Below, piece by piece: positions 14,050-37,076 of a DNA stretch of 64,000 nucleotides. How positions within the stretch are numbered: the first letter of the stretch is position 1; every line of letters begins with the position of its first letter. Both the position numbers and the translations under genes were made by a program. The DNA lies in assembly GCF_016827605.1 (NCBI RefSeq), contig NZ_JAEPJQ010000008.1:62001-126000 (forward strand), in the 5' to 3' direction. Below the pieces are notes generated by a model. It was not told the DNA's origin, did not search any database, and saw nothing but the letters and a program-made list of their open reading frames with translations. This DNA comes from Hyunsoonleella ulvae (GTDB taxonomy: Bacteria > Bacteroidota > Bacteroidia > Flavobacteriales > Flavobacteriaceae).

Positions 14050-17000
14050 CTAACGTTTTAGGGTAAAATGTCCCATAAAAGTTCTACCGTCTTCAAGAAG
14101 TACTTTAAACCAATAATCATCGGTAGGCATAAGTTGACCATTGTAAGTACCGTCCCAACCATCAGCAGAGGTTAATAATTGCTTCATGAGTTTTCCATAG
14201 CGGTTGTAAATATAAATTACGCTATTAGCTTGAGTATTTTCGTCTACACCTCTTATTTGCCATATATCATTTGTACCATCATTGTTTGGTGTGAAAAATT
14301 TTGAATACCCTATTACCGAAATGGGAATATTTATTTCTCCGCAAATACTTTCTCTAATAAATAGTGTGTAGAATCCTGCTCTAACATTAGTGAAAACAGG
14401 TTCGGTTTGGTAATTTATAAAATTTGAGTCTTCCTCAACTAAAGCAAATTCATAAGTACCACGCCCAATATCAGTAATATCTATAGTAACACTATTGTTT
14501 TCAGAGATATCTACAATGTCTATATCTTCGATTGTAATATTTGCGATCTCTGAGGATTCAACACTTACTTCTCTGGTTCTAGAACAGCCGGTACCATCTG
14601 TTTTTGTTAACGTTATGGAGTAAATGCCTGGTGTGGATACATTATTTAAAACCGCATTATTGGATACTACACTGCCTTCAAAACGCCATTCATAAGAAAA
14701 TGTTTCGTTAGTATTTACATCAAGAGGCTCTAAACTAATATTGAATGAAGGATTTGAAGAACATACTATCCTTGGACTCTCTACTTCAAACTCAGGAAGC
14801 GGATTTACTGTAAAATCAACGGAGGTTGATACAAAACAAGATGGGTTTATGGTATTAAATACTTCTATGGTAATGGTTTGATTACCAGAAATAAAGGGGT
14901 CTGGAAGGCTTGGGCTATTTGTGATACTATTTCCATTTTCATCAATATAGTTATATGCTATCTGCCTATTGCTTTGATTGCCTATTATTGTATTTGTAAA
15001 TGAAGTAGTAGGGAATGGGTATATACCATCATCATCAATATCTCCTGCACTACCATCACATACTACTTGGGCTGGGATAGTATTGGCTATCACTGGTTGC
15101 TCATCTACGGTAAAGTTTATTAATGTTTCGTCAAAACAAGGGCCGTCAGGGTCTTGAGTGTTGTTGTTTGTAACTCTTACCGTGATGGTTTGGTTTTCAG
15201 TTAAAAATGTAGGTTGTATTGGGCTTGTAACTGGGGTGCCATCATTATAAAGCAATGAGTCTCCATTAGCATTAAAATAAGTAATGGTTACATCAGTACT
15301 ATTTTGTCCACTTAAAATTTGGTTCTCTAGTTGAGAGGTATCAAAAGGAAAGCTCAACACAGCATCTGTTGTATCAATATCACATTGTCTACTAAACGTT
15401 ACTGGGTTTGCTACAGGTAATTCCTCAACATTTAATAAGTTGGCAAATTCTTTTATCCCTAAGCAATCATTCCCTAAATTACTTTTTACTCGTACCCAAA
15501 TGGTTTGCATATTTGGTGAGCTTGTATTTTCATGATTATCTATGTCTGTAATCTCATTGGTTTCTAATTCAGCATCCATCAAGGCTTCATAGAAATGAGC
15601 TGTTACCGTAACGGTAGTGAAAATGTTATTTTCAATTTCATTTTTAATATCTGTTACATCAAAAGTAGCTATGCCATCGCGACTATCTATACCATCATCA
15701 CATTGAAATTTGGGTTGCGGATTGTAGTTATTTAAAGCTGTACTACTTGGATTAACTTGAAGTGTTAACGGAACCACGCTATGGCATCCATTTGTGTCCT
15801 CAACTCTAATCCACACAGTTTCAGTTGTGAAGCCTGGGTCATCTTGATATGCTTCTGGGGTAAGTATAGGGTTCGAATTACTATCTGCTTCTACTTCTGT
15901 CTCAAAATAGGTAAACACTAAGTTTTCAGCAATAAAATTTGGATTGATTTCTGCTTTAATACTATCTAAAGTTAAGTTGAAAAAGGATTGTCCATCGTTG
16001 CTGTCATCATCACATTGTTGGAAAGTATTTGGGGTATTAGCTATCGGCAAAGCATTTATTTCTAAAATCGCCGGATCGGAATAAATACCACAACTATTTC
16101 CACTACGATCTAATTTTACACGATATTGAAAATTATTGAAACTTAACGGAATATTGGTAATTGTAAGCTGATCGGTTTGAGTTCCTGAATAGGTAGCGTT
16201 ATCTGTAATTATATTCCAATTAGTACCACCGTCTGTACTAGTTTCCCATTGATAGGTTTCTGCTTCAGGAGAGATAACCATAAAGCTATCTGTCGAGTTT
16301 TCACAGACTGTGGTTGTTGCTGGTTGTTCTGTAATTGTAATAGGGGCGGCAGTTAAGTAGTTAGCGTCTGGCAAAGTATACCCATCAACGGCATTGGTAA
16401 CGAGACCTAAACCTGTGGAGGCATCTGCAACTAAATCTACTAAAACGGTACCGTCACCTAAATAGGTATCCATATTACCATCAGAAAAGCCAGCTTCAAT
16501 GACATCGGTACAATCATCGCCATCACTATCTTCATCGATGTAGCTAAAAACGCCATCGGTATCTAAGTCATTTAATGTATATCCAATCTCATTGCTGTCA
16601 GGTGTAGTTTCTGCTACGTCTATCCAGCCATTGGTTCCAAAACCTGGGCCGTCAACAATTCCATTTAAATCTGTATCAGAAAGTAAGCCTAGTTCCCCGG
16701 TTTCTATCAAATCTGTAATACCATCATTGTCGCTATCCAAATCATAAAAGTCTGGAACGGTGTCTCCATCGGTATCAACAGGAGGCATTCCATTATAAAT
16801 ATCGTCTAAACCATCATTATTTGCATCTATTCCTGATAAGGGTGTTAAAACACCTTGATTTTCAATAAAATCAGGAATGCCATCATTATCACTATCTAAA
16901 TCAAATGCATCTTTAACACCATCAAAATCTGTATCTTTTTGATAACATGACAATGATAAAACCCCATTAAATGTAGAAGACGAGGTTCCGTTTTCTAAAA

Positions 17001-19215
17001 TATGAACAAATGAAAAACCATCAACTTGATTTGCGAGAAATTCATAAGGTGTATTTCCACTAGGTGAAGGGTTAAACTTGAAGCGTATTTCTGAGCCAGA
17101 TAATATAGTAACTCCAGTTTCAAAAATGCCATCAAAATTTGAATCTACTAAAAGTCTGTTGTCAGGATCTACTAATGTAATGTTTTTATCTACGGGTAAT
17201 ATTCTAACTATAAAAAATTCGCCATTAGCTTCAATATGTGTTATAGTATTGTTTTCTGAGAATTTGATATCTACAGCTTCGGTAAAATTCAAAGTATAGT
17301 TGTTTTGGGCAGAAGTTGCAGGCATAACTACACTACTAATATTACCTGTAGCGTTTCCATTGAATGTATTGGTACCCCCATCACTATTAGTCTGTGTAAA
17401 GTTACCCGTTGCAATAGTTGTATTTGTACTTCCATCTTGAAATACTAATTCAGGTGTGTTTAAATTTGTAGTATTTAGTGTAACGTCTCCTCTAGATTCT
17501 GTACAATCAGGGATACCATCATTGTCATTATCTATGTCTATATTATCGATTATCCCATCGTTATCTCTATCATCTGGACAAATACTAACAGGAATTTCCA
17601 CAGACTCTAGCTCATCATTAGTACATGCTATAATACCTACTAATTTATATGTTCCTGGATTATTAGGTGTTATACTGGAATTTGTTTCCAAGATATCAAC
17701 GAAACCTGCTCCAGAGCCATCATCAAAAAGCCACCTAAAACTATCAAAGTTTTGAGCATTTGCAGCTTCTAAAGTAACATTAGGAATACAGTTCCCTAAG
17801 GCAGTAAATGTTACATCAAAATTAATTTCTGGTGGTGAAGGGAACCCTGAATAGAAGCTTCCAGATGTAGCTTGCCCACTATAATTGAAATATGCACAAT
17901 ATAACTCATCATCACTTTCTACCGTAATGTTGCCTGTGATACCTTTAACTTTATATGTAACATAATCTGTTTTTTCAGTTACAGCATTTGGAGTACCTAG
18001 GGGAATATTGCCTGTTGTAGACGATATTGCGGTAACATTAGCAGTACTTTTTGTTACTATGGTAATTCCTCCTTCATAGTTATTGCCACCAATACGATTA
18101 ATATTGGCTATATTATCCAGGTTACCACGTGTTTCACAACTTAGTGGAGGCACAAAAAACATCCCTTGGTTAGCCTCAGAAGGAGAACCGTTATTACTTA
18201 AACCACCAACGCCTTGATATGCGAAAACAGGTTGTGATGTTTCAACATACATGTTGTCGTTACTACTATAGTTATTACCTTCTATAATGAAGTATTCCCC
18301 AGCATTAATGGTAATACCAGAGGCATTTCCATTGATATTGATTGAGGTGTTATTAGTATGAGCTACTAGTAAAATGTTTTCCCAACTATTTGAGCCATCT
18401 CCTCTTACAAATATATATTCTGTACCTATTTTACTTTCTCCAACAATTTGATCTATACCATAATCTCTGGCTCCGCCACCACCAAAAGTACCATTTGCAG
18501 ATCCACAATTAACAACGATTGGTTTATTTGATTCTACAAGAGCGCCTATTAAGCCATCTTCATTAACTAAACTTCTAGCGCTATTGGTAGCTATAGTGTA
18601 GCTCTCTCCTTCATTTAATATTACCGATATCGGAGTAGCTCCACTGTAATTTTCAATTATAAGTCCTGTAGGTAAGTTGCTAAAGGTAACCTGTGTATCA
18701 TCCTCCGAAGCCATTACCGAAACAAAATTCAAATAGTTATCACGAGAATTAGCAAAAGCTCCTTCATTGTTATAACTACCAATTCGAAATGAGGTGTCAA
18801 GTGCAGATAAACCTTTGCTTACAAGAGCACCTGCTTGTGAACCAGCATTCATTCTTACCGATACATATATCACATCTTCAGCTTCTATTATATAACCCTT
18901 ATTTGTTGTGATTACACTTGAAGTTGATGGTGGTATAAACAGTTGGGTATTACCACCACTGCCTACTGAGATTTCTGCTGGATTATTATTGCTCACAGTA
19001 CCTGTTATATAATTAGCTTCAGGTTGTCCTATGGGCTTTATAGTATATGGAACGTCAGAATTTCTAGGAGTTGAAAGATATATATACTGGTCTTGTGGTG
19101 TAGAACTACCCGATTCAGCATACGTTAAGGGCGGGATATAGTGTGTTTTACTTAATTGGGAAAAACCTTGATAGCCTACTAAAACGATAAGGCAAAAAAT
19201 GAGGTTCCGTAACAT
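14050..19215 (-). CDS. Giant T9SS type B surface protein, IgGFc-binding-like head
   Basis: This 1721-residue exported protein has a signal peptide (1-19). Residues about 24-460 form a beta-rich head resembling the IgGFc-binding N-terminal domain of bacterial adhesins. A PKD-like segment follows, then thrombospondin type 3 calcium repeats (about 545-915) with many DSDNDGIPD motifs. Next come an Ig-like domain and four copies of the two-cysteine ~95-residue repeat shared by the next three proteins (about 1055-1470). The C-terminus is a type B sorting domain from KFFTPNNDGTNDIW (about 1638) to GHFTLKR. It is likely anchored at or released from the outer membrane as an adhesin or structural protein. 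The ligand is not predictable. Start is ATG. Confidence 0.88.
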   Translation of the reverse strand: MLRNLIFCLIVLVGYQGFSQLSKTHYIPPLTYAESGSSTPQDQYIYLSTPRNSDVPYTIKPIGQPEANYITGTVSNNNPAEISVGSGGNTQLFIPPSTSSVITTNKGYIIEAEDVIYVSVRMNAGSQAGALVSKGLSALDTSFRIGSYNNEGAFANSRDNYLNFVSVMASEDDTQVTFSNLPTGLIIENYSGATPISVILNEGESYTIATNSARSLVNEDGLIGALVESNKPIVVNCGSANGTFGGGGARDYGIDQIVGESKIGTEYIFVRGDGSNSWENILLVAHTNNTSININGNASGITINAGEYFIIEGNNYSSNDNMYVETSQPVFAYQGVGGLSNNGSPSEANQGMFFVPPLSCETRGNLDNIANINRIGGNNYEGGITIVTKSTANVTAISSTTGNIPLGTPNAVTEKTDYVTYKVKGITGNITVESDDELYCAYFNYSGQATSGSFYSGFPSPPEINFDVTFTALGNCIPNVTLEAANAQNFDSFRWLFDDGSGAGFVDILETNSSITPNNPGTYKLVGIIACTNDELESVEIPVSICPDDRDNDGIIDNIDIDNDNDGIPDCTESRGDVTLNTTNLNTPELVFQDGSTNTTIATGNFTQTNSDGGTNTFNGNATGNISSVVMPATSAQNNYTLNFTEAVDIKFSENNTITHIEANGEFFIVRILPVDKNITLVDPDNRLLVDSNFDGIFETGVTILSGSEIRFKFNPSPSGNTPYEFLANQVDGFSFVHILENGTSSSTFNGVLSLSCYQKDTDFDGVKDAFDLDSDNDGIPDFIENQGVLTPLSGIDANNDGLDDIYNGMPPVDTDGDTVPDFYDLDSDNDGITDLIETGELGLLSDTDLNGIVDGPGFGTNGWIDVAETTPDSNEIGYTLNDLDTDGVFSYIDEDSDGDDCTDVIEAGFSDGNMDTYLGDGTVLVDLVADASTGLGLVTNAVDGYTLPDANYLTAAPITITEQPATTTVCENSTDSFMVISPEAETYQWETSTDGGTNWNIITDNATYSGTQTDQLTITNIPLSFNNFQYRVKLDRSGNSCGIYSDPAILEINALPIANTPNTFQQCDDDSNDGQSFFNLTLDSIKAEINPNFIAENLVFTYFETEVEADSNSNPILTPEAYQDDPGFTTETVWIRVEDTNGCHSVVPLTLQVNPSSTALNNYNPQPKFQCDDGIDSRDGIATFDVTDIKNEIENNIFTTVTVTAHFYEALMDAELETNEITDIDNHENTSSPNMQTIWVRVKSNLGNDCLGIKEFANLLNVEELPVANPVTFSRQCDIDTTDAVLSFPFDTSQLENQILSGQNSTDVTITYFNANGDSLLYNDGTPVTSPIQPTFLTENQTITVRVTNNNTQDPDGPCFDETLINFTVDEQPVIANTIPAQVVCDGSAGDIDDDGIYPFPTTSFTNTIIGNQSNRQIAYNYIDENGNSITNSPSLPDPFISGNQTITIEVFNTINPSCFVSTSVDFTVNPLPEFEVESPRIVCSSNPSFNISLEPLDVNTNETFSYEWRFEGSVVSNNAVLNNVSTPGIYSITLTKTDGTGCSRTREVSVESSEIANITIEDIDIVDISENNSVTIDITDIGRGTYEFALVEEDSNFINYQTEPVFTNVRAGFYTLFIRESICGEINIPISVIGYSKFFTPNNDGTNDIWQIRGVDENTQANSVIYIYNRYGKLMKQLLTSADGWDGTYNGQLMPTDDYWFKVLLEDGRTFMGHFTLKR

Positions 19216-19376
19216 AGCTATTAATTATTTAGTATAGGTAGATATTAAGCTTAAAGCTATAAATATATAGCATTTAAGCTTTTTAGACTTAAATAAACGC
19301 TTAAGGTTTAATTTTTAGTGTTAAATAACTAAATGTTGATAGAGATTTTTCTAAAAAACCAAAAAAAATGAATTTA

Positions 19377-22300
19377 CTACCTCTTTAAAGCAAAATGCCC
19401 TCTTATATTAAAGCTTTCCCCTTCATGAACAATATTTGCAGAGAACCAATAGTCGTCTGCTGGCATATGCTGACCGTTATATGTGCCATCCCAGCCAGGA
19501 GATGTGTGGGATAGCATTTTTAAAAGTTTGCCATGCCTGTTATATATATATACTAAAGTTCCAGGGAGTTGGTTTGCACCTGTAACATGCCAGGTATCAA
19601 AAAAACCATCATTGTTGGGCGTTACAAATTTTGGGATATCAAATATGAAAACAACATCATAAGCAGGATTACAACCATTTAAATCTATTACTGTAATGTC
19701 ATGACGACCAATAGGAACATTATCAAAAACATTAGAAGTTTGTGGCTCTCCATCATCCAGAATAAACCTGTAATCACCAGTTGCAGTTGCATCAATATTT
19801 ACTGTAATCCTATTAGGATCGGTAAAATTAACAGTTGTACTCGGGTTTAGTGGAGCCTGTTGTGATTCTATAACCGTAAACTCTTTTGTGAAATCACATC
19901 CCGTATTTTTAGTAACTGTAACAGTGTAATCTCCAATTTCTGAGATGTTATTTAATGTTATTATTGATGTGGTCGCACCATTGGACCATGAATATGTGTC
20001 GTTATCATCTCCTGTATATGCACTTATAACTAAAGGTAAATCATCAGTACAAAATGCTACAACATCATCAATAGAAATTACGGGTAGCGGTAAAACAATT
20101 GCGTTAAATTCAGTAATATCATAACATCCAGTGTTTGTGTTTTCTAATCTAGCATAAATTGTTTCGTTTAGATTGACCTCATGAGAATTATCCAAGGCAG
20201 CTGTACCATTTTCAGCATCATTAAATGTCGTATAATAGGTAATTTCATGTTCTGCTGGGTTTTGTGTATCTAAAATATCATTTCTGGTTTCCAGCAGATT
20301 AAATCTAAATATACCATCAAAATCATCATCACACTCTACCAAATCTTGAGGCGGATTTGCGACTGGATTTTGATTGATTTGTAATGTAAAGCTTCCATAT
20401 GTAATACATCCTGTAGTTGAATCTTCCATTCTGGTATAGATAATATGACTATTTGAGGTGTAGTCAAACGGATTGGTAAATTCACCTGAGTTATTTCGCG
20501 CATCAATTTCAGTTGCATGATAACTTATGGATACGGTACTTAAATCTTCAACAATGATGTCGTCCATTACAGATAGATCAAACGTATTGGTTTCGTTATC
20601 GCATATTGGGTAAGTACCGCTAAATTGTATTGGAGGTAATGGTATTACAACCAGTTCTAGAGGCAATACTGTATAACAGGTGGTTAGTGTATTTAAAACT
20701 TTTATAAATACGGTTTTAGAATTTGAAGAATAATTATTTGGATCTGCTATAGCAAGAGCATCGTTATCTACATCTTCTGAATTTTCAAAATAGCTAACAA
20801 CAGTACCTGTTTGTATTCTGTCAAAGTTTTCATATTGCGCATCATCTAAATCAAATATAGTAAAGCCATCATAATCATCGTCGCATAGTCTGAATACTTC
20901 TGCCTCTGATAAATCTGGAGCTGCAACTACATTAATACCAAAATCCTCAATAACAAAACAATCTGAATCTTGATTATCTATCCTTACAAATAGTGATTGT
21001 GGGTTTCGGGTATTTGTAAATTCTAATGGAATAGGAGTATCATTGTCAATAGCTTCCTGTTCGCTTGTAAAGAAGTTAATATCCAAGTTGGTGGTAGAGC
21101 CTTGTGAAATCTCATCAATTTTTTCATTTAAATCAAAAGTTCCAAAACCATCATTACTGGCGTCGTCACATACTAAAAATGGAGTAGGGGTATTATATAC
21201 AGGGTTTGCTCCAACTTCAATTATAAAGGATGATGTGGCATTACAATTGGCATGCGTTATGTTTTGTACTCGCACATATATGGTTTGAGGGCTGGAGGTA
21301 TTGGTATATGGTGTATTTTTATCTATGGGATCAGTATATGCAGCGTCTTCAAAATAAAATACCTCTTTTCCAACTTGTCCGTTTAAAATTTCAGAATCCC
21401 AATCTGTAAATAAAAACTCTGTGCGTTCATCATTATCGTCTTCGCATAACTGAAAATTATTGATAGACGTTAATATAGGAATGGTATTCACGATAATTTC
21501 AAGGGTTGCTATGTCAAAACAGTTTGAAGAAGCACTCTCTACTCTAACATATATATCTTGCGTACCAGTTTCATAATTGATAACATCTTGATTAATAATA
21601 GCATTAACGTTATTGTTGGCATCATCAATTGTTGTAAAAAATTGTATATCTAATCCCGCTGTACTGGAAACTATTTCTGGTATTTTGTCTTCTAGGTTTA
21701 AAATAGTTAGACCATCGCCATCTGTATCACAAATAAACCAAGGTGTTGGTTGTGTTATGGGAGGAGCAGGCCGAATTTCTATATCAAAAGATTCAATTGT
21801 AAAACAACCTGTATCATTGTTTTGTATTCTGGCATATATGGTTTCAGTAGGTAGCGAATTAGTATAAAATGGGGGTAATGGAGAGTCGTTGTTATCTGCA
21901 TCTGTTTGGTTTCCAAAGTAAGATACTATAAAATCGGTATTCCCACCAGTTACAATATCATCAAAACTTGCTAACTCTATACTTACCACACCATCATCAT
22001 CATCATCACAATAGGGGATTGGGTCAATGGGGTTAAAAACTAAAACTGGATTTATTACCAAATTTATATCGGAGACTTCTGTACAATTTCCATTTTCTAT
22101 ACGAATTATTAAATTCGTTGTATCTGTAACTGTGTATACTTGACTTTTGTTAAGAGGGGTATTATTATCAAAATCTGTTTGAGTTTCATAAAACGTTACT
22201 GTAATGTCCGGGAGTTCATTAGCAATGTAGGTTTCAACAACAAATAAGTTAAAATCTTCAACACCATCATTAGACCCATCGTCACACAAAGCAAATTCTC

Positions 22301-24224
22301 CGGTATCTGTTCCTGTCAATAACAGATTTGTATGGATTTCTAGGGGTACCACAGATGCACAACCTGTAGTATTGTCCTCCACCCTAACAAAAACCGTTTG
22401 TACATCTGGAGTAATGTTTTGATAGTTTGTTTCATTGGCAATAGGGTCACTACCAGTATTGGCATCATCAAAATTTTCATGAAATGTAGTTGTAACCCCT
22501 GTTAAACCTTGTAAAATATCATTTATCGCTTCTGTTAGGTCAAAATTATCGATACCATCCCGTTCTACATCACATCCATCAAGCGGTACTGGTTCTCTAT
22601 TCACTATTGGACCATTAGTAACGTCTACAGTTAATGTGCTTGTTGTATAACAACCTGTAGTGGCATTTATAACCCTTACAAATAATGGTTCAGTAGAATT
22701 ATTGTTTATATATGGTATTGGTATTGGGTTATTTCCATTATCTGCATCTAAAGTATTGTAATGGTAGGTAACTACTAAATTTGTGTCTCCAGATGTTATT
22801 TCATCATTTTTGACGCTAAGGTCTATTGTAGTAATACCATCACTGGGGTCGTTATCACTATCACAGATAGGGAGATTGGTTGGATCTGTGATATCTGGAA
22901 TAGTATTTACCGTTATATTGAATGCAGTATAGGCTACACAACCAGAATCTAAATCATCTATTCTAACAAAAATAGGTTGCGTAAGCGATGTGTTTTGTAT
23001 GGGACTTGTAATAGGGTTACTATTAGATCGTGCATCAGCATCTGATAAATGATAGCTAAACGTGTAGTTTGTAAAAGTAATGATGCTAGACACTTCGCTA
23101 TCTTTTGTGGATAAATCAAAAGTTTCCACTTCATCGCCACTCAAATCATCACAAAGTTGGTAATCTGTTATAGAAGTTAAAGTGATCTCATTTTGTATGG
23201 AAACTACAATTGCATCTTCTTCAACACAGCTAGAAGATCCTAACGGTGTAGTGATTTCTACACGGTAATTTCCAGACTGTGTAGTGGTTAAAGTAGGGTT
23301 GGTTTCCCCTGAAATTGGTGTAGTACTTCCATTTAAAAACCATTCATACGTAGATGAAGGGTTTTGTATGTCTGCATCTATGGTAACTGAACTAGCACAG
23401 GTGGTTATATCTTCTCCTAAATCAAGTATTCTAAAACTATCACCTTCTATAAAAACTGCTGAGTCAAATCTTTGGTCGGCTTGATCGGCAATTACTAATT
23501 TAATATGGTATTGTACATAAGGTGTAATTGTAGCTACAGCTGTAAGTACTTCTGTTCTTCCGTTATAGTTTGTGTCACCAAGACCTTGGCCTGCAAAATA
23601 TTCCTCGTTTAAGGCGGGGCATACACCTGGAACTTCCTCTCTTACTGTATTAGTACTCACAGGTGTATTTGTACCTGGTATAACAGCTATATTTTGATAA
23701 GGAGCTGTTGAGCCAGCTTCTCTTATAAGAAACGCAAAACCATCAGAAAATTGGCAGGGATTAATACCGGAGTATTCTTCTGAAGCTAAGAGATAATTAA
23801 ATTGTACTTGATTTGATATGGACACAAAATCAAACTCTATGGAAGTAGCATTTAAAAAATTATTATTTCCCAATGCAGTTTCTAAATCGGGATCTGTGCC
23901 CCAAGTGGTTGATCCCTCGCTCAAATCTGTGGTAATTAAAGTATTACCTCCAGACTCAGCATTCCCGGTCGAAAGCATTATTCCGTTTTCAAAAGGAAAA
24001 TTAGAGCTACCTCTACTGAATTCAGCAAAACTCCTAAACCCATTAGAATCCCCATTAACGGTAGATACTACATTTGAAACCTCAACACATCCATCGACTA
24101 AATTATCCTGTATGAGTTGATTAGCTGTAACATTTCCATTTACATTAATTTGTTGTGCTACAACGAGGTATGTGCTCAATAAGAACGCAATTAATATAAA
24201 ATTGAAATGTAGGGGCTTTTTCAA
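19377..24224 (-). CDS. Giant T9SS type B protein, choice-of-anchor L head, 11 repeats
   Basis: The protein has 1615 residues. The start is a TTG at 24224 (MKKPLHFNFILIAFLLSTYLVVAQQ), the only start that precedes the signal peptide. Residues about 24-270 match the choice-of-anchor L domain (VEVSNVVSTVNGDSNG, MLSTGNAESGG, YLLASEEYSGINPC). From about 350 to 1378 lie 11 tandem repeats of about 93 residues. Each has CDDDxDG...F(D/N)L near its start and a second cysteine in a TGC-like turn, suggesting one disulfide per unit and acidic ion-binding loops. The sorting domain begins at KFVTPNNDGFFDTW (about 1528) and ends RGHFALKR. It is probably a long rod on the cell surface. Confidence 0.88.
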   Translation of the reverse strand: MKKPLHFNFILIAFLLSTYLVVAQQINVNGNVTANQLIQDNLVDGCVEVSNVVSTVNGDSNGFRSFAEFSRGSSNFPFENGIMLSTGNAESGGNTLITTDLSEGSTTWGTDPDLETALGNNNFLNATSIEFDFVSISNQVQFNYLLASEEYSGINPCQFSDGFAFLIREAGSTAPYQNIAVIPGTNTPVSTNTVREEVPGVCPALNEEYFAGQGLGDTNYNGRTEVLTAVATITPYVQYHIKLVIADQADQRFDSAVFIEGDSFRILDLGEDITTCASSVTIDADIQNPSSTYEWFLNGSTTPISGETNPTLTTTQSGNYRVEITTPLGSSSCVEEDAIVVSIQNEITLTSITDYQLCDDLSGDEVETFDLSTKDSEVSSIITFTNYTFSYHLSDADARSNSNPITSPIQNTSLTQPIFVRIDDLDSGCVAYTAFNITVNTIPDITDPTNLPICDSDNDPSDGITTIDLSVKNDEITSGDTNLVVTYHYNTLDADNGNNPIPIPYINNNSTEPLFVRVINATTGCYTTSTLTVDVTNGPIVNREPVPLDGCDVERDGIDNFDLTEAINDILQGLTGVTTTFHENFDDANTGSDPIANETNYQNITPDVQTVFVRVEDNTTGCASVVPLEIHTNLLLTGTDTGEFALCDDGSNDGVEDFNLFVVETYIANELPDITVTFYETQTDFDNNTPLNKSQVYTVTDTTNLIIRIENGNCTEVSDINLVINPVLVFNPIDPIPYCDDDDDGVVSIELASFDDIVTGGNTDFIVSYFGNQTDADNNDSPLPPFYTNSLPTETIYARIQNNDTGCFTIESFDIEIRPAPPITQPTPWFICDTDGDGLTILNLEDKIPEIVSSTAGLDIQFFTTIDDANNNVNAIINQDVINYETGTQDIYVRVESASSNCFDIATLEIIVNTIPILTSINNFQLCEDDNDERTEFLFTDWDSEILNGQVGKEVFYFEDAAYTDPIDKNTPYTNTSSPQTIYVRVQNITHANCNATSSFIIEVGANPVYNTPTPFLVCDDASNDGFGTFDLNEKIDEISQGSTTNLDINFFTSEQEAIDNDTPIPLEFTNTRNPQSLFVRIDNQDSDCFVIEDFGINVVAAPDLSEAEVFRLCDDDYDGFTIFDLDDAQYENFDRIQTGTVVSYFENSEDVDNDALAIADPNNYSSNSKTVFIKVLNTLTTCYTVLPLELVVIPLPPIQFSGTYPICDNETNTFDLSVMDDIIVEDLSTVSISYHATEIDARNNSGEFTNPFDYTSNSHIIYTRMEDSTTGCITYGSFTLQINQNPVANPPQDLVECDDDFDGIFRFNLLETRNDILDTQNPAEHEITYYTTFNDAENGTAALDNSHEVNLNETIYARLENTNTGCYDITEFNAIVLPLPVISIDDVVAFCTDDLPLVISAYTGDDNDTYSWSNGATTSIITLNNISEIGDYTVTVTKNTGCDFTKEFTVIESQQAPLNPSTTVNFTDPNRITVNIDATATGDYRFILDDGEPQTSNVFDNVPIGRHDITVIDLNGCNPAYDVVFIFDIPKFVTPNNDGFFDTWHVTGANQLPGTLVYIYNRHGKLLKMLSHTSPGWDGTYNGQHMPADDYWFSANIVHEGESFNIRGHFALKR

Positions 24225-24341
24225 TGTGTTAAATTTGATGATATTACAATTTATATATAGATAATATATGACGACGAAAGTAAATATATTTTAGACGAAA
24301 CGCAAAAAAAACCGATGAAATACATATTATCGTCTATCTAA

Positions 24342-26795
24342 CTAATATTTCAAAGTAAAATGATCTTTAAAAACTCTTCCATCTTCTAATTTTATTGAAA
24401 ACCAATAGTCATCTGTTGGTAAGATTTGTCCGTTAAACAAACCATCCCATCCTTCTTCTAGAGGCGACAATTCCTTTAATAGCTTACCATATCTATTATA
24501 GATTAATATTTTAGTTTGTGACTGAAATGCATCAGATATGCCATACACTTGCCAAGTGTCATGTTCTCCATCATTATTAGGTGTAAAAAACTTAGGGAAG
24601 CCTATAACTGATATATCTTGTTGCTCTGTACCACAATTGTTTTCTACATCTTTAATTAAAACGGTATATAACCCTGGTGTAACATTTTCGAACGTATTGC
24701 TTTCTTGAAAATTATAGATGATGCCCTCAGTATTTACTAGGCTATATTCATATTTTCCTTCTCCAGTTACATTTACAATTACTATATTGTTTTCAGAGGC
24801 ATCATCGATATCAATAGATTCAATGGTAGCAATGTTAGAAGGTTCAACAATTACTAGCCTTTCTTTTTCACAATTAGTGACTATATTAGATACCCTAACG
24901 GTAAAATTACCTGTTTCGTTTACTTGTATGACATAATCCTGATCGCCAGTAGACCAATTGTATAAAAAATCTGTGATATTACCATTGTTTAAACCTGCAT
25001 CTATAAAAATGGGTTTTGGGAAAAAATTTAGGCAATAACTTGTTTGGGTCTCTATTTCTATATCTGGTAATTCGTTTACAATAAGTTGTACTTCACTAAT
25101 GCCATAACAATTGTTGTTGTTTTCTACACGGGCATAGATAGTTTGAAAATCAGGTGTTTCGTTGGTAAATGTATTATTTAAATTGTTTCGTTCTCGCAAA
25201 GCATTATCATAATTCTCATAGTAAGATATGGTTAAACCAACTGGTAAACCATCAGTAATACCTCCGTCAGCTTCATTTAAGTTAAAAGTGTAAAAGCCAT
25301 CTTCAATACCATCATTATCACATTTTACTATACTATTATTAAATACGTTTGTTGTACTGACACTTAACACTAGTTCAGCATTGGTAACACAGTTTGTGTC
25401 ATCATTTATAATTTCTACATAAATAGGTTGTGGGTTAGAAATGTTAGGGTAGTTATTAGGAGCAATGATTTCATCCGTTCTTGCATGGTCAGAATAAAAT
25501 GTGGTAGATAAATTATCTACATTATTTGTTAGTGTGGTATTAGCTTCATTTAAATTAAATATGGTCAATCCATCTGAAATACCATCTTCATCACATTGAA
25601 GTATAGTATGATCAATTCTTTGAGGTAGGACATTTACCATTAGTATTAGAGAGGATGTACTTGCGCAGTCTGGATTAGAAATATCTTCAATACGAAAATA
25701 TATTTCTTCATTAAAGGCGGTAGTGTTGTAATAGGAGTCTGGTAACAGTGTGCTTACATCATTTTGTTCTGCACCAGCAAGTGTGTTATGATACGTAATA
25801 GTAACATCTGATGGATTAAGTCCATTTAGGATTTCATCGTTTTTTGAAGATAATGTAAATGTATTTCTACCGTTTCTATCATCTCCATCACTTAAATCAT
25901 CACAAATAGTATATGGTGTAGGTAATGTGAAATTTGGTCCAGATTCTACACTAAGCCTAAATTGTGTAATGTCAAAGCAATCAGTAATATCATTTGTTAT
26001 TCTGGCATGGATGATTTGCTGATTGGATGTATTGGTATAACGGTCTGGAATTGCATTTATACCAATATTTGCATCACTCTCAGAAGTGTGGTAGGTAATG
26101 GTAACATCAGTTTGACTTCCTCTTATAGCATCTCTATTTGGTGTTAAATCAAATTCTGTAATACCATCATTGAAAGGTGCTGTAACATCACAACTTTGTA
26201 GATTTAGGGGTGTTCCTGATGTAACAGCCTGATTTGTTGGTGGAGGGGAAAAAGTAGCACTTCCTGTCCATTCTAGAGAAAACCCACTATTGCCTATGGG
26301 GCGATCAATTACTATTAGATAGGTTTCTCCTGCCTGAACGTCTAGCCATCTTACAAAACTATCTCCGCCATTTCCTGGTTGTTCTGATATATCAATGGAG
26401 GTACCATTCATTCCAGTTAAATTATTGCCTTGAGACGATTGAAGTGGATTATTGGCTGAACATCTAATGGCTTGACCGATATTGTCACATAAAGTATTAG
26501 GTCCGAAAACAAAAAAATCATAATCTTCATCTATTGATGTACTATTGGGTCTTAGGGTAAAGCCTAAAGTACCTGATGTAGCAGGAGTTACTTTAAACCA
26601 AACACTGTGATTCTCCCTTATGCCACAAGCATTACTTCCGATTAACTCTTGATTTCCAAAGCCATTTACATTTAGATTAATAACAGAATTTCCACAAGCT
26701 ACAACTGCATTTATGCAATCGTTCGGTGCTTGTCCGTATACCATAATATTAAATAGGGTAAAACTTGCTAAAGCTAGTATTTTTAAAGGTTTCAA
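24342..26795 (-). CDS. T9SS type B surface protein, PPC-like head, four repeats
   Basis: I place the start at the TTG at 26795 (817 residues; signal peptide KPLKILALASFTLFNIMVYGQ), four bases after the upstream stop. Its context CACATTGAAA is the same as that of the next gene's TTG start. An ATG at 26840 (832 residues) is possible but overlaps the upstream gene by 41 bp. The head (about 22-190) resembles PPC-like domains (NHSVWFKVTPATSGTLGF, DYDFFVFG, AGETYLIVID). Four ~95-residue two-cysteine repeats follow (195-575), then a pre-sorting domain and the type B sorting domain (KFFTPNNDGEHDTW). The last two repeats onward are very similar to the upstream 922-residue protein. Confidence 0.85.
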   Translation of the reverse strand: MKPLKILALASFTLFNIMVYGQAPNDCINAVVACGNSVINLNVNGFGNQELIGSNACGIRENHSVWFKVTPATSGTLGFTLRPNSTSIDEDYDFFVFGPNTLCDNIGQAIRCSANNPLQSSQGNNLTGMNGTSIDISEQPGNGGDSFVRWLDVQAGETYLIVIDRPIGNSGFSLEWTGSATFSPPPTNQAVTSGTPLNLQSCDVTAPFNDGITEFDLTPNRDAIRGSQTDVTITYHTSESDANIGINAIPDRYTNTSNQQIIHARITNDITDCFDITQFRLSVESGPNFTLPTPYTICDDLSDGDDRNGRNTFTLSSKNDEILNGLNPSDVTITYHNTLAGAEQNDVSTLLPDSYYNTTAFNEEIYFRIEDISNPDCASTSSLILMVNVLPQRIDHTILQCDEDGISDGLTIFNLNEANTTLTNNVDNLSTTFYSDHARTDEIIAPNNYPNISNPQPIYVEIINDDTNCVTNAELVLSVSTTNVFNNSIVKCDNDGIEDGFYTFNLNEADGGITDGLPVGLTISYYENYDNALRERNNLNNTFTNETPDFQTIYARVENNNNCYGISEVQLIVNELPDIEIETQTSYCLNFFPKPIFIDAGLNNGNITDFLYNWSTGDQDYVIQVNETGNFTVRVSNIVTNCEKERLVIVEPSNIATIESIDIDDASENNIVIVNVTGEGKYEYSLVNTEGIIYNFQESNTFENVTPGLYTVLIKDVENNCGTEQQDISVIGFPKFFTPNNDGEHDTWQVYGISDAFQSQTKILIYNRYGKLLKELSPLEEGWDGLFNGQILPTDDYWFSIKLEDGRVFKDHFTLKY

Positions 26796-26799
26796 TGTG

Positions 26800-29568
26800 C
26801 TAGTTTTTAAGTGTAAAATGGTCTTTAAAAACCCTACCATCTTGTAAAATTACAGAAAACCAATAGTCATCTGCAGGTAATATTTGTCCATTTAAGATAC
26901 CATCCCAACCTTCTCCTAAAGGAGTTATTTCCTTGAGTAGCTTGCCATACCTATTAAAAATCATAATTTTAGTATTTGGCTGAAACATTTCTGAAACACC
27001 ATAGACTTGCCATGTATCATTTTTTCCATCATTGTTAGGGGTAAAAAACTTGGGAAAACTTATAACAGAAACTTTACTTTGTACTGTGCCACAGTTATTT
27101 TTTATGTCTTTCACAAATACAGTATAGATACCCCCTTTTACATTATCAAAAACATTACTATCTTGAAATGGATACTCAAAATTTCCCTCTGTATCTACTA
27201 ATCTATATTGATAAATACCGTCCCCAGTAACATTTACAGCAACTGTATTGTTAGAAGTAGCATCGCTTACCGTAAAAGGATTTGGTTGAACAAATGCGGC
27301 ATCGCTAGATGGCTCTACGGTTACGGTTCTTGTTGAAGTACATTCGGTAGTAACACTGGTAATGTCTACAGTATAAATACCTGTGCTGTTGATATTAATA
27401 TCGTGTGTAGTTTCTCCTGTAGACCATAAATAGGTATAATTATTTTGATCAGCTAGAGGGATATCGGCATTTATACTTATGGGATCGGGAAATAGATTAA
27501 TGCAGTAATAGGTAGAGAATGTATCTTGAATAGTAGGTAATGGATTCACAATGAGCTCTAGTTCGCTTATGCCATAACAATTGTTTTCGTTTTCAGCCCT
27601 GACAAAAATAGTTTGCACAAATGGTTGTGTATTTATGTAATTTTCAAGCAAATCATTTTGTTCTAAAAGTGCATCTTCATATGTTTCATAGTATGATACA
27701 ATAAGATCAGAAGGAAGGCCACTGATAATATTTTTACCTGCTTCACTTAAGTTAAAAGCATAAAAACCATCTTCATTACCATCATCATCGCACTTTGTAA
27801 TTCCAGTGTTAACTATACTTGTTGTACTTACAGTTAAGGTTAATTCGGCATTTACACTACATAATGTATCTGGGTTATAAACCTCAACATAGATTATTTG
27901 ATTATTGCTTGTATTTGGGTATCTAGAAGGATCAACTATAGCAGTGGTTCTCGCTGGGTCTGTATAATATCTTATACCCAATTCAGTATTGTTATTTGTT
28001 AATGTCTCAGTTGCCTCTTCTAGGTTAAATACTGTTAAACCGTCAGGAATTCCATCTTCATCACATTGTAATAAACTAGTATCTGATGCTATAGGATTAG
28101 GAGAGAAACTTACCCTAGCTGCTCCTTCAAACCTGTCTTCACAGCGACCTGTATTAAGATCAATTAAAACAGAATATAGCCCATCTAGATTATTTCGTAC
28201 CTCGTAAGTATTTCCACTATTGGTAAGATTATTTCCATTTCTTGTCCATGTGTATGTGGCACCAAGAAAATCAGGTGCTCTTAAAACGAAACGCTCTCCC
28301 TCACATAATTTTAAGTCTGTACTAGAAGCATTATTTCCAATAATATCTATTTTTTGTGTAAAGAAGGAGGTAATAAAAGGGGGAAGGCCTTGCGTGGAAT
28401 TTCTACTTAATGCTATTTTATTGTGTTGGTAATCACAACTTAACCCTCTGGTATTTGGAGCGTTTACCACAGAAAGGTTAGGTAAACCTTGGGAAAAGGT
28501 TCTACTCATAGCTCTATATATCCTACCATCTATACCAAGTTGAAGACCTCCTCTAAAACCTATGCGTTCATCAATAATAACGGCACTTGCTGAAACATTA
28601 GGAACTGTTAAATCATACTGGATTAGAGATGTATACTGTGCACTAGGGGTATTAAATTCAATAGGGTCTGGGGCATCATAATATGCCGTAACATATAGAA
28701 GTTCGTTATTTTGGGAAAATTCTAGACCATAAGGGGATTGCGGCTTACTTGGAAGCGAGGTATCTACAGTTATTCGAGATTGATTAGTAACTTGCCCAGT
28801 GTTTACATCAAAATCAAAAAGAAACAAGCCTGAAGTTACATTGGCACAGGCTACTTTAGTACCATCGGGTGATAATTTTAGATATCCTCTAGGATCTGTA
28901 ATTTCTAGAGAAGGAAAGCTTGATATTACTGGTGTGGTGTTAATGCCAGTATCTGTAATTTCATAGGCATAAAAGGTATCATGAAAAATAACATCGTTAA
29001 TAATCCTGGTAGAAGGACCAAAAGTAATGACCCATAGTTCTTTAGATTCACAATCTTTTACAACCGCACTTATTTTTTCGGAACTATCACTGCGTAAGTT
29101 TATATTTTTTGATGTAGGCACAACATCTCCAAACCCTCCGTTTAATCGCATATCTACAGTAGAGTAATTAAAACCAAAGTCGATTGGATCGTTAGGTCCA
29201 GTGGTGTCTACTGTAAAGATATAGTATATGTTATCATCGTTTGGTTTGGGTATCACTATAGCAGATTGCGTACTTGAAGGGTCTCCAAACAAACCGCCGC
29301 TAGCTGGATTTGCATTTGGCATGGGTCTATGTAGTCTATCCCAAACAGTTATGCCATCTGTGTAGAAAAGTAAGTTTCCGTTTATATCAGAGATTGTTGT
29401 ACAACCTTCATTGGTACTCAACATACCATCCGTAAGTTCTGAAATTGAACCGTCTACATTAAACGTAAGACCTGCATTGTTACCAAAATACCAGTTTGCA
29501 GCTTGTCTTTGGGAATACAAGTTTAGAGCAAACATCCATAGTAATAGGAATACAGTGTTTTTTTTCAT
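26800..29568 (-). CDS. T9SS type B surface protein, beta-propeller-like head, two repeats
   Basis: This 922-residue protein has a signal peptide (MKKNTVFLLLWMFALNLYS). Residues about 22-400 read as a seven-bladed-propeller-like head with LKLSPDGTKVA, YGLEFSQNNELLYVTA and LQLGIDGRIYRA blades, a set-up common in flavobacterial gliding-type proteins. A PKD/Ig-like segment follows (about 415-485), then two ~95-residue two-cysteine repeats (489-678), a further domain with YLWSTGETT, and the type B sorting domain from KFFTPNNDGKNDTW to DHFTLKN. It starts 29 bp after the ABC permease gene on the same strand, so cotranscription is possible. Its C-terminal half is duplicated in the next gene. Confidence 0.87.
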   Translation of the reverse strand: MKKNTVFLLLWMFALNLYSQRQAANWYFGNNAGLTFNVDGSISELTDGMLSTNEGCTTISDINGNLLFYTDGITVWDRLHRPMPNANPASGGLFGDPSSTQSAIVIPKPNDDNIYYIFTVDTTGPNDPIDFGFNYSTVDMRLNGGFGDVVPTSKNINLRSDSSEKISAVVKDCESKELWVITFGPSTRIINDVIFHDTFYAYEITDTGINTTPVISSFPSLEITDPRGYLKLSPDGTKVACANVTSGLFLFDFDVNTGQVTNQSRITVDTSLPSKPQSPYGLEFSQNNELLYVTAYYDAPDPIEFNTPSAQYTSLIQYDLTVPNVSASAVIIDERIGFRGGLQLGIDGRIYRAMSRTFSQGLPNLSVVNAPNTRGLSCDYQHNKIALSRNSTQGLPPFITSFFTQKIDIIGNNASSTDLKLCEGERFVLRAPDFLGATYTWTRNGNNLTNSGNTYEVRNNLDGLYSVLIDLNTGRCEDRFEGAARVSFSPNPIASDTSLLQCDEDGIPDGLTVFNLEEATETLTNNNTELGIRYYTDPARTTAIVDPSRYPNTSNNQIIYVEVYNPDTLCSVNAELTLTVSTTSIVNTGITKCDDDGNEDGFYAFNLSEAGKNIISGLPSDLIVSYYETYEDALLEQNDLLENYINTQPFVQTIFVRAENENNCYGISELELIVNPLPTIQDTFSTYYCINLFPDPISINADIPLADQNNYTYLWSTGETTHDININSTGIYTVDITSVTTECTSTRTVTVEPSSDAAFVQPNPFTVSDATSNNTVAVNVTGDGIYQYRLVDTEGNFEYPFQDSNVFDNVKGGIYTVFVKDIKNNCGTVQSKVSVISFPKFFTPNNDGKNDTWQVYGVSEMFQPNTKIMIFNRYGKLLKEITPLGEGWDGILNGQILPADDYWFSVILQDGRVFKDHFTLKN

Positions 29569-34141: not shown

Positions 34142-34589
34142 AGCTTAATTCTTTTTCAAAACAGATACTATTATCAACACCAATGTAGGGGTCAAAGTTT
34201 TCAACAATATGATAGTTGTTCTTTTTGTAAAATTTAACAGCTTCTAGTTGTCGTTTGCCAGTTTCTAAAATGCAAGTTTTAAAGCCTAATTCAGTAGCCC
34301 AAATTTCAAGTTCGTTTAAGATTTTAGAGGCTAATTGCTGCCCTCTATATTCGGGTAATGTGAACATTCGCTTTATTTCAACACTGTTTTTACCGTAGGA
34401 CTTAAAAGCACCACATGCCACAGGTATGTCTTTAATAAAAGCTACAACCACATGATTTAAAGTATCAATGCCATTGTATTGCATATAAAAATCATGATCA
34501 TTACCATCTACAGTTTTTAAATACTTATTAAGTTGTGATACTAAGTTCACAAATCCAGAATGCTCAGAATTAGTACGTACTATCTTCAT
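34128..34589 (-). CDS. GNAT-family N-acetyltransferase
   Basis: This 153-residue cytosolic GNAT protein has a beta-strand with VACGAFKSY, then [29 protein letters not shown], which contains the acetyl-CoA pyrophosphate-binding RGQQLA loop, and the C-terminal [20 protein letters not shown]. The substrate cannot be inferred. It overlaps the cca stop by four bases and ctaA by 14, so it is part of a coupled operon. Confidence 0.88.
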
Positions 34590-36010
34590 TCTTTAATGAT
34601 TTGTTTAAGTCCAAGTGCTTTTCCTTTTTCTATCATTAACTCATAGGCAGCATCATATTCATTAGGAATCTCTCCCTCTAAAATAGCTTCTTTTATCGCT
34701 TCTTTAATGATCCCAATTTCCCGAGATGGTTTTAAATTGAAAGTTTCCATTATTTCCTCTCCAGTTACTGGTGGTTGGAAATTTCTAACGTTATCTCGTT
34801 CTTCAACTTCAATAATTTTCTCCCTTACTATTTTAAAATTATTATGGTATTTATTGAATTTCTTTGGGTTTTTTGTGGTAATATCTGCTTCACAAAGTGT
34901 CATTAAATCATCTACATAATCGCCAGCATCAAATATCAATCGCCTAACTGCTGAATCAGTTACAATATCTTGGGCAAGTACAATTGGTCTTGAGCTCATT
35001 AATACCATTTTTTGTACAAACTTCATTTTATCATTTAAAGGCATTTTTAAGCGTTTAAATAAGCGATACACCATTTTGGAGCCCTCAAATTCGTGCCCAT
35101 GAAATGTCCACCCTACTTTTTTACTATACCTTTTAGTAGGAGCTTTTCCAATATCGTGCAATAATGCAGCCCAGCGTAACCATAAATTATCTGTATGTTT
35201 AGAAATATTATCTACCACTTCTAAGGTATGATAGAAGTTGTCTTTATGGCGTTGTCCGTCTATTTCATCAATACCTTTTAAAGCGGTAAGTTCTGGTAAA
35301 ATATAATTAAGTAAGCCTGTTTTTTCTAATAATAAAAAACCAATTGAAGGAATTTTGCTTTCTAAAATTTTATGGAGCTCTATTACAATGCGTTCATTGG
35401 TGATTATCTTAATACGTTCTGCATTTCTAGTTATGGCTTTAAGGCTTTCCGTTTCTATATTAAAGTTAAGTTGCGTTGCAAACCTAATGGCGCGCATCAT
35501 CCTTAATGGGTCGTCGCTATAGGTAATGTCAGGGTTTAAAGGGGTGCGAATTATTTTATTGTGTAGATCTTCAACACCATTAAAGGGGTCTAGTAAAGCA
35601 CCAAAATTGTTTGCTGATAAATTAAGAGCTAGGGCATTTATAGTGAAATCACGACGGTTTTGATCGTCTTGTAACGAACCGTTTTCTACAACAGGGTTCC
35701 TGCTATCCTCAGAATAAGATTCTTTTCTTGCACCTACAAATTCAACTTCTATGTCTTCATGTCGTAACATTGCCGTACCATAGGTTTTAAATATTTGTAC
35801 TTTGGGTTGTGTAGGTAAATTATCGGCAACCTTTTTGGCCAATTCTATACCGCTCCCAATAGCAACAACATCAATATCTTTTGCATTACCTCGTTGTAAC
35901 AGAAAATCTCTTACAAAACCTCCGATAACATAGCTTTCTAAATGGAGCTGGTTTGCAGATTTTGATATAACTTTAAATATGTCGTTTTGAAGTGCTTCTT
36001 TGTAATTCAT
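34586..36010 (-). CDS. cca: CCA tRNA nucleotidyltransferase with HD domain
   Basis: This enzyme adds or repairs the 3' CCA end of tRNAs. The 474 residues are in the class II order: nucleotidyltransferase core ([12 protein letters not shown], catalytic D45 and D47 in KDIDVVA), [11 protein letters not shown], the [13 protein letters not shown] template loop, and NERIVIEL. The HD domain ([13 protein letters not shown], then [10 protein letters not shown]) follows near 265, where it may act as a phosphatase/phosphodiesterase. Its ATG lies only 10 bp from the left inverted repeat of the GxxExxY cassette, so its original promoter or leader seems to have been displaced. Confidence 0.95.
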
Positions 36011-36020
36011 ATATTATACG

Positions 36021-36036
36021 CCACGAATTCACGAAT
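36021..36036. repeat. Left inverted repeat of the GxxExxY cassette
   Basis: CCACGAATTCACGAAT is the exact complement of 36486-36501. The unit is itself two copies of the 8-mer ATTCGTG(A/G) on the other strand. It lies in the leader of cca. Similarity continues outward, imperfectly (ATATTATACG against ATAATATAG). Confidence 0.85.
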
Positions 36037-36105
36037 TATCTAATAACTCAAAAAACTAAAACTTTTAATATCACTAAATTTTCTCTGTCTCATAGTTAGT
36101 AATTA

Positions 36106-36480
36106 TTAAAATATTATTCTTTTATATTTCAGTCCATCTTTATGAAAGTTTCCTAAAATAGCTAGTTTATTTTTACTTACTTTAAGATAGTTGAGGCATT
36201 GGGATATGTGTTTATCATGTAAGGATTCGGCACATTTCAATTCTAAGATTATTTTATTGTAAACAATAAAATCAGCGTAAAATTTGTGTGATAATACAGT
36301 GTCCTTGTAATTTACTGAATATTCTTTTTCTCTTTCAAAGGGAATATTCAGACTTTTAAACTCATACTCAATAGCATCTTTGTAGACGATTTCAGAAAAC
36401 CCACTACCTAAATTATTATATACTTCAAATAGCACACCTATAATACTATAACTCTCTTCTTTATACAGAATATTTGTCAT
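36106..36480 (-). CDS. GxxExxY protein, PD-(D/E)XK nuclease-like
   Basis: This 124-residue protein carries the family name motif G27-FS-E30-IV-Y33. The pattern E30, D70 (FYADFIV), E80-L-K82 and Q94 matches the PD-(D/E)XK nuclease fold assigned to this family (PDDEXK_3), with all acidic and lysine positions kept, so it looks catalytically intact. Family members are about 120-130 residues and have no known biological role. It lies alone on the minus strand inside an operon of housekeeping genes, enclosed by perfect 16-bp inverted repeats. Substrate and DNA binding are unproven. Confidence 0.9.
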   Translation of the reverse strand: MTNILYKEESYSIIGVLFEVYNNLGSGFSEIVYKDAIEYEFKSLNIPFEREKEYSVNYKDTVLSHKFYADFIVYNKIILELKCAESLHDKHISQCLNYLKVSKNKLAILGNFHKDGLKYKRIIF

Positions 36481-36485
36481 AAATT

Positions 36486-36501
36486 ATTCGTGAATTCGTG
36501 G
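36486..36501. repeat. Right inverted repeat of the GxxExxY cassette
   Basis: ATTCGTGAATTCGTGG is the exact complement of 36021-36036. It lies 5 bp after the last base of the GxxExxY start codon and 5 bp before the stop of the Sua5/YrdC gene. Confidence 0.85.
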
Positions 36502-36506
36502 CTATA

Positions 36507-37076
36507 TTATTTGTGTAAAACCTTAACAATTCCGTTATTCTTAATTTGGATAATGGAAGCAGGTTTATTACATGTTTTTTCGCGATGCAAATTTACGACA
36601 TAGTCCACACCTTTTAAAATGGAAGCATCTATTTCTTTATAGGATTTAGGGGTGGATTTTTTATCAATATGGGCTATACATGTGGCAATAGCTCCGTTTA
36701 AGCGCCTTGATAGCTGAAAACAGAACTCATGATTAGGGATTCTAATAGCTATTGTATTGTCTTGCGAAATAAGATTTGAAGCCAAATTACGTGGCGCATC
36801 ATAAATTATTGTAGTTGGGGCGTCTGTAACATCAATGATGTTTTGAGCAGCAAAAGGGATTTCTTTTACATATCTACTTAACATACGGTCGTCTGCAACA
36901 AAACAAGTTACTAATCCTAGATTTTTGCTTTGGCTTAGATTTAATAGTTGTTTGACTGCTGTTTCATTACCTGCATCACAGCCAATACTCCAAAATGTAT
37001 CTGTAGGAAATAAAATAATACCTCCATTTTTTAGAGCATCAACTGCATGCTTTACCTCTGTATAAATACTAGGCAT
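36507..37076 (-). CDS. Sua5/YciO/YrdC threonylcarbamoyl-AMP synthase-like protein
   Basis: The 189-residue YrdC-domain protein shows ALKNGGIILFPTDTFWSIGCDA near the start, SKNLG with the conserved lysine near 50, and IAIRIPNHEFC and CNKPASIIQI at the end. These enzymes make threonylcarbamoyl-AMP from threonine, bicarbonate and ATP for the t6A37 modification of tRNAs that read ANN codons. It lacks the extra Sua5 C-terminal domain. Its start overlaps the upstream glycosyltransferase stop by eight bases. Membership is clear, but whether it is the main TsaC/Sua5 or a YciO paralog is less so. Confidence 0.88.
   Translation of the reverse strand: MPSIYTEVKHAVDALKNGGIILFPTDTFWSIGCDAGNETAVKQLLNLSQSKNLGLVTCFVADDRMLSRYVKEIPFAAQNIIDVTDAPTTIIYDAPRNLASNLISQDNTIAIRIPNHEFCFQLSRRLNGAIATCIAHIDKKSTPKSYKEIDASILKGVDYVVNLHREKTCNKPASIIQIKNNGIVKVLHK

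Follow-up and report, generated by a model that had tools for sequence, protein, structure and literature searches.

A single gene for a GxxExxY protein, enclosed by a perfect inverted repeat, lies between two housekeeping genes in the window, by which we mean the whole 64,000-nucleotide stretch of Hyunsoonleella ulvae DNA that was analysed. The gene (36106..36480, minus strand) encodes 124 amino acids of the PD-(D/E)XK nuclease family. A Sua5/YciO/YrdC gene (36507..37076, minus strand) forms the upstream flank of the site and a gene for a cca-type tRNA nucleotidyltransferase (34586..36010, minus strand) the downstream flank. The genes around the unit overlap by 4-14 bp, which bears out the preliminary description of a unit set into a tightly overlapping Sua5-cca run. 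Arm, gene and arm together occupy 483 bp (36020..36502, minus strand). The arm on the gene's 5' side (36486..36502, minus strand) consists of two 8-mers with the core CRCNRAT, reads inward as GCCACGAATTCACGAAT and has homologous counterparts in relatives. Its exact inverted copy forms the arm on the 3' side (36020..36036, plus strand), and the non-coding stretch between the stop codon and this arm (36037..36105) is nearly identical in G006, a genome of the same genus.

The perfect inverted repeat, with GCCACGAATTCACGAAT at 36020-36036 and the reverse complement at 36486-36502, is found where it had been described, although its true length is 17 bp instead of 16 bp; an extended repeat (36020-36042/36480-36502) covers 23 bp at 91%. 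Shuffling the two 250-bp flanks 200 times never produced as high a score. With up to three mismatches allowed, the window contains the 16-mer at two places, both of them at this unit, but two or more such matches arose in 8 of 100 shuffles, so the loose count by itself is not decisive. Across the whole genome the arm 15-mer occurs exactly at this pair only, and with 2 mismatches at six further places (five for the reversed control). Elsewhere in the window, at 14472-28083, there are several diverged direct repeats as long as 300 nt (76%), in genes that may be repeat-rich.

The family assignment of the protein is well above the cut-offs of both TIGR04256 (GxxExxY; 127.9 bits against 35) and PF13366 (PDDEXK_3; 116.6 against 22). 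Among 53 aligned sequences, the window's included, E30, D70, K82, Q94 and Y98 are invariant and E80 is kept in at least 90%, in agreement with the earlier statement that the PD-(D/E)XK residues are retained. The AlphaFold model has a mean pLDDT of 95.7, and a search with this predicted fold placed SSO0001 (E 8e-6, TMq 0.60, rmsd 11.8), which we take to be a Cas4, and lambda exonuclease as the nearest solved structures; I-Bth0305I was a weak match (E 0.1). By sequence search, no solved structure was found up to E 1. The Q94xxxY98 arrangement resembles the QxxxY motif of RecB and Cas4. In 11 close pairs, dN/dS ranged from 0 to 0.28 (a twelfth was excluded for unequal length), indicating that the gene is under purifying selection.

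The gene is common: of 395 Bacteroidota genomes sampled, 186 have it, one with as many as 11 matches, fragments counted. A viral or phage reservoir was considered and rejected: phages gave no GxxExxY match, and viral contigs gave no confirmed match to a single-sequence query. Literature searches for GxxExxY turned up no described role in the partial records retrieved, where the name occurs as an annotated gene or domain, and the same was true of the records for TIGR04256, IPR026350 and PF13366. Searches with the arm sequences and with PDDEXK_3 returned nothing.

Arm architecture across Bacteroidota

Homologous arms accompany the gene far beyond the window. We examined 110 Bacteroidota loci with full flanks, comprising the 78 best-scoring copies per genome and 32 copies chosen from multi-copy genomes, a set in which weak or decayed copies are under-represented and from which incomplete loci and L030, L031, L402 and L403 were dropped before counting. 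The arms are built from 2-6 copies of a 7-mer core, CRCNRAK, spaced 8-14 bp apart and pointing inward. Thus, the preliminary account of each end as two 8-mers holds at this locus, but the general word is a heptamer that recurs up to six times elsewhere. A core arm is present on at least one side in 96 of the 110 loci and on both sides in 70, compared with 8 and 2 for the reversed pattern; no arm was detected in 14 loci by the core pattern used. Core clusters numbered 84 and 95 in the right orientation versus 20 and 20 in the wrong one, and the density of correctly oriented cores was 3.8-4.3 per kb near the gene versus 0.24 per kb in the rest of these loci. A motif-free inverted-repeat score of at least 24 was reached by 72% of the 78 loci, as against 0.6% of 312 shifted controls and 5.5% of 400 cross-locus pairs. 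The flank shuffles, the shifted and cross-locus controls and the reversed-pattern control led us to reject a chance inverted repeat.

The spacing of the cores recurs in a few sets (8,8; 9,11,9; 10,11,10; 10,12,10), and the outer spacings of the left and right arms are equal in 60 of 70 loci where 24.2 would be expected. Because this spacing is close to one helical turn, several protein subunits might lie on one face of the DNA. In the same 70 loci, with the element edge set approximately, target duplications showed no clear excess over shuffled pairs. In one locus (L072), the stretch between 1035 and 287 bp upstream of GxxExxY is a tandem array of ~130-bp units with an arm at the end of each (6 arms pointing inward), where its close relative L084 has one arm.

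The type of arm goes with the protein. When mapped onto a tree of 129 GxxExxY proteins, the last core base (G or T; 115 rows) requires 5 changes and the spacing class (105 rows) 18, compared with 53 for host family, a trait with many more classes that could be scored only in rows bearing a code or name. When the clade of copies at the cca site is removed, the core end still needs 5 changes versus 20.1 after shuffling and 19.2 after shuffling within host family, and spacing needs 17 versus 38.4 and 37.5. One genome may carry units of different type, as does G541 with spacings of 10, 8 and 9. Arm type therefore tracks the GxxExxY protein tree and not the host, across host families. Linked arms would also travel as passengers, but that an architecture is kept over such large protein divergence points to selection on the arms. 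Linkage alone is no proof that the gene product recognizes them. A search for covariation between residues and arms tied no residue to arm type, there being too few independent changes.

Some copies have no arms. The second GxxExxY gene of the window's genome (L001; G000:C22:3871-4212), ~94 kb from the unit, is armless and has a KilA-N gene on one side and a ResIII helicase gene on the other. It belongs to a clade without arms (with L021, L024, L026 and L175), and by Pfam each of these five members adjoins a restriction-modification gene (ResIII, N6_N4_Mtase, Methylase_S, Methylase_S and N6_Mtase). Beyond the Bacteroidota the evidence for arms is weak. Among 7 plasmid copies, the inverted arms exceed every shuffle only in Bacteroides and Bernardetia. 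The copies of Treponema, Fusobacteria and Prevotella have weak inverted scores that are reached by 2-4.5% of shuffles, the latter two having strong direct repeats instead, and those of Gemmatirosa and Persicobacter gave no arm signal.

The Sua5-cca site

To place the window copy in context, we surveyed the best 80 relatives found by searching genome contigs. The cca gene is present in 74 of their loci, and one further locus, at a contig end, has Sua5, so that 75 of 80 lie at the Sua5-cca site; L117, with only a weak and distant Sua5 match, was scored as elsewhere. Strict arms stand on both sides in 55 of the 75. Two loci of this kind (L057 and L114) lie on contigs labelled Rhizobium and Klebsiella pneumoniae, and because the loci are Flavobacterium-like, these bins look contaminated. 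Within the window's genus, the unit is present in the window's genome (G000) and in G006. Sua5 adjoins cca without a unit in G001, G003, G004, G007 and G009, in spacers too diverged for the join to be placed. G010 retains a right-arm remnant only, and G002, G005, G008 and G011 have no Sua5 beside cca. The shared position in the 75 relatives together with this pattern within the genus indicates that the site is old. The window copy is not a recent insertion, and losses of the unit within the genus are likely.

In the 55 strict loci, core base 2 (A or G) is the same in both arms in 54, where the shuffled maximum was 42. Base 5 is the same in 51, the N position less often (38), and the spacer base between units in 44 (shuffled mean 33.3). 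The two units within one arm also agree at the two purine positions (52-54 of 55), but at the N position in only 35 and 29. For the state of base 2, the GxxExxY tree (66 rows) needs one change and the cca tree (65 rows) six, and the well-supported branches of the cca tree alone require at least 4 changes. Forcing the 18 rows with G at this base into one clade of a 73-row cca tree was 253 log-likelihood units worse (p-AU 0.0002); the G set was named from the arms, with L092 added by eye. These trees came from quick searches and have many weak forks, and the long branches L171 and L363 were left out of later ones.

The two species represented by L109 and L115 illustrate where the histories part. 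Over the last 120 bp of Sua5 they are 86-93% identical to their host relatives versus 73-84% to G-type species of other branches, and over the first 120 bp of cca the corresponding ranges, which overlap, are 72-94% and 70-78%. For the GxxExxY gene between them the relation is reversed, with 70-71% identity to the A-type host relatives versus 79-88% to G-type species, values for L055 being excluded from this comparison. L118 has the same reversed pattern for the gene, with flanks that are not clear. By the trees and these sequence comparisons, in at least two species the gene and its arms were swapped together at the Sua5-cca site while the neighbouring genes stayed. The preliminary description had named the same gene and ends at this exact spot in all relatives, with normal vertical divergence, as an outcome that would speak against a mobile unit. 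The site is indeed shared by most of the nearest relatives, but a vertical history is contradicted at L109 and L115.

Gene-less hairpins

The same repeats also occur dispersed and without a gene. In 30 genomes with a cca-site gene, the CCRCNRATNCRCNRAT pattern occurs 2-101 times per genome, compared with 0-2 times for its reversed form (6 in one genome, which has 5 forward matches). The preliminary description held that repeats found mostly without GxxExxY genes would argue against its proposal. Taken literally this is the case in Flavobacterium, where F. nitrogenifigens alone has 127 matches (89% of the 53 tabulated are one 16-mer), but the additional matches there have the appearance of derivatives of these arms that lack the gene. 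Hairpins lay outside open reading frames in 27 of 28 cases, with open reading frames covering 81% of the sequence. F. nitrogenifigens also carries a dispersed element of another, unrelated kind, ~200 bp long with many TTCCGTAGGAA words (L295, ~15936-16137), that is absent from the same spot in G313 and G316.

Across 249 Flavobacteriaceae genomes, of which 57 have GxxExxY, the gene was found in 15 of the 18 with at least 8 repeat matches versus 42 of the remaining 231 (Fisher's test, p 2.4e-8, phylogeny ignored). These 42 gene-bearing genomes thus have fewer than 8 matches, and three repeat-rich genomes (G160, G161 and G289) lack the gene. In the genus coded g147, two genomes without the gene have no repeat match, and at least 21 other sampled genomes have the gene. 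We tabulated homogeneity for the 3 gene-free and for 13 gene-bearing genomes at listed places (53 of 100 for G312), most others having few matches. In the gene-free genomes, the modal 16-mer accounts for 13-38% of repeats, 0-26% have like units and none of 4 arm pairs is identical. With the gene, the modal 16-mer accounts for 18-89%, units are alike in 18-89% and at least one identical arm pair occurs in 9 of 13. The exceptions are G311, G030, G191 and G061, and G311 looks as decayed as the gene-free genomes. Genomes with and without the gene differ modestly in repeat decay; the tendency is real but blurred.

Hairpin content also varies at orthologous places among seven close Flavobacterium species, and at one such spot one species has CACGAATT-type arms and another CACAGATT-type arms. 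Among 362 flank comparisons there was one partial case and no clean empty hairpin site. The repeats sampled from F. flevense are mixed, with 10 of A type and 9 of G type, and 7 of these match its own arm exactly. The samples of G071, G075, G086 and G088 yielded 0-2 matches each, too few for typing these hosts.

A candidate class of arm-bounded units

Given these observations, we consider it somewhat probable that the locus belongs to a large class of selfish units, each made of one gene bounded by arms, in which the nuclease works the arms and the host copies them. The GxxExxY nuclease would itself act on the arms. Several subunits might attach to the cores along one DNA face or within an extruded hairpin, after which the protein would nick or trim the DNA there. 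Host repair or replication would copy the arms plus whatever sits between them. Such copying would often be directed into older arms of the same kind, resembling homing or conversion and not cut-and-paste into fresh sites, and the short hairpins would stand to these units as REPINs do to RAYT genes, as non-autonomous derivatives. The locus had initially been proposed to be a mobile unit. What stands of that claim is that gene and arms act as one and are exchanged in place; an insertion event, a target duplication and a clean empty site were not found.

The alternative with the most to recommend it, though we regard it as unlikely, is that the arms are those of a different transposase, such as a Y1/IS200 or RAYT enzyme, with GxxExxY as cargo or a passenger. 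A Y1_Tnp match is present in 27 of 31 genomes tested, and enzymes of the Y1/RAYT type are considered to move hairpin repeats elsewhere (PMC3116915). However, a core cluster lies near only 1 of 26 Y1 loci with full flanks, the repeat-rich G091, G272 and G297 have GxxExxY and no Y1_Tnp match, and arm architecture tracks the GxxExxY tree. With 25 of 26 Y1 loci lacking arms, a Y1 or RAYT partner is not supported. G161 has repeats and neither gene, so its enzyme may have been lost or a third may be involved. A sample of 1.38 Mb from Flavobacterium, its loci partly overlapping, is a weak test of cargo, since the same scan yielded no GxxExxY unit there. It yielded 2 long arm pairs, one of them around a long unrelated reading frame that we take to encode a beta-ketoacyl synthase.

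Three other explanations were considered. That the unit is a resident gene whose arms act in RNA, pairing around the reading frame or folding into hairpins to regulate how the operon is processed or expressed, would account for their inverted arrangement, for the agreement of the spacer base between arms and for the old site kept in 75 of the 80 nearest relatives. We find this quite improbable, as RNA pairing needs no agreement between units within one arm, yet the purine positions agree; same-genus genomes have Sua5 adjoining cca without a unit, the armless clade retains the gene, and the same arms are found as gene-less intergenic hairpins. A defence or restriction-like nuclease, with arms that label self DNA or provide hot spots at which defence genes are shuffled, would fit the restriction-modification genes (ResIII, DNA methylase, Methylase_S) beside L001 and its four nearest relatives, but the copies at the cca site stand alone between housekeeping genes within matching arms, and no PADLOC defence model matches the window protein; this we consider very unlikely. 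The conserved site and the agreement of arms within a locus could also reflect plain vertical inheritance, with mutual gene conversion keeping the arms alike. The cca tree nevertheless rejects a single G-type clade where the GxxExxY tree needs one change, and at L109 and L115 the identities break at the unit, which leaves vertical inheritance highly improbable.

Among known systems, the selfish-unit reading most resembles REPIN/RAYT (REPtron) pairs, in which the gene has copies of a short repeat on its flanks, these repeats also lie dispersed between genes as inverted hairpin doublets, and enzyme lineages are paired with repeat types (REPIN side from PMC3116915). The GxxExxY gene is likewise flanked by the repeats found elsewhere, and intergenic inverted doublets occur in other genomes, but not in the window's own, which has 4 repeat matches. 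REPIN/RAYT repeats bear a GTAG or CGTC tag at one end (PMC3733652). No such tag was found here, the arms being tandem CRCNRAK 7-mers at 8-14 bp spacing and not GTAG-tagged palindromes. Moreover, the partner is a PD-(D/E)XK protein (PF13366) instead of an HUH Y1 transposase, and the GxxExxY unit is exchanged together with its gene. Because both the enzyme and the repeat design differ, the system is not REPIN/RAYT by membership; by analogy, it looks like a similar partnership built on an unrelated Cas4-like nuclease. Among the papers listed on dispersed or palindromic repeats in this group, no title or abstract opening describes the arm-gene system.

Other comparisons are more partial. Insertion sequences and MITEs share terminal inverted arms and short gene-less relatives, but the sole gene here belongs to the PD-(D/E)XK family and no target duplication was found. 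Free-standing homing endonuclease genes, some of which encode PD-(D/E)XK enzymes such as I-Bth0305I, are likewise single nuclease genes at a conserved site that are replaced in situ, and the exchange at L109 and L115 would fit copying of a homing type. Unlike them, this unit is bounded by its own inverted arms, which are also dispersed, and no disrupted recognition site was identified. The closest solved fold, which is partly similar, and the QxxxY motif point to Cas4 and the casposons, although the unit has neither Cas1 nor a polymerase; Cas4 proteins are defined by a PD-(D/E)XK fold with a four-cysteine Fe-S cluster, and the GxxExxY protein, with two cysteines, does not have the four-cysteine set. 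Rpn (YhgA-like) nucleases are also PD-(D/E)XK enzymes, for which we know of no arm system, and they belong to PF04754, not to PF13366. They are described as recombination-promoting, DNA-mobilising proteins, which the title of PMC5350276 ties to RecA-independent transfer.

A more specific proposal, which we offer tentatively, is that GxxExxY alone is the mobilising, Cas4-like nuclease of widespread minimal elements. It would recognize, within its own arms, arrays of heptamers in helical phase and spread itself and the gene-less hairpins by copying from arm into arm, without a transposase and by a route distinct from those of DDE, HUH, serine and tyrosine enzymes. The natural arm variants (A or G at base 2, G or T at the core end, and spacing of 8, 9 or 10) make recognition directly testable. 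If GxxExxY does drive the arms, then a very common orphan family would gain a function, the abundant dispersed hairpins of Flavobacterium would be explained, and a second, unrelated class of enzyme would be found to have adopted the REPIN type of life.
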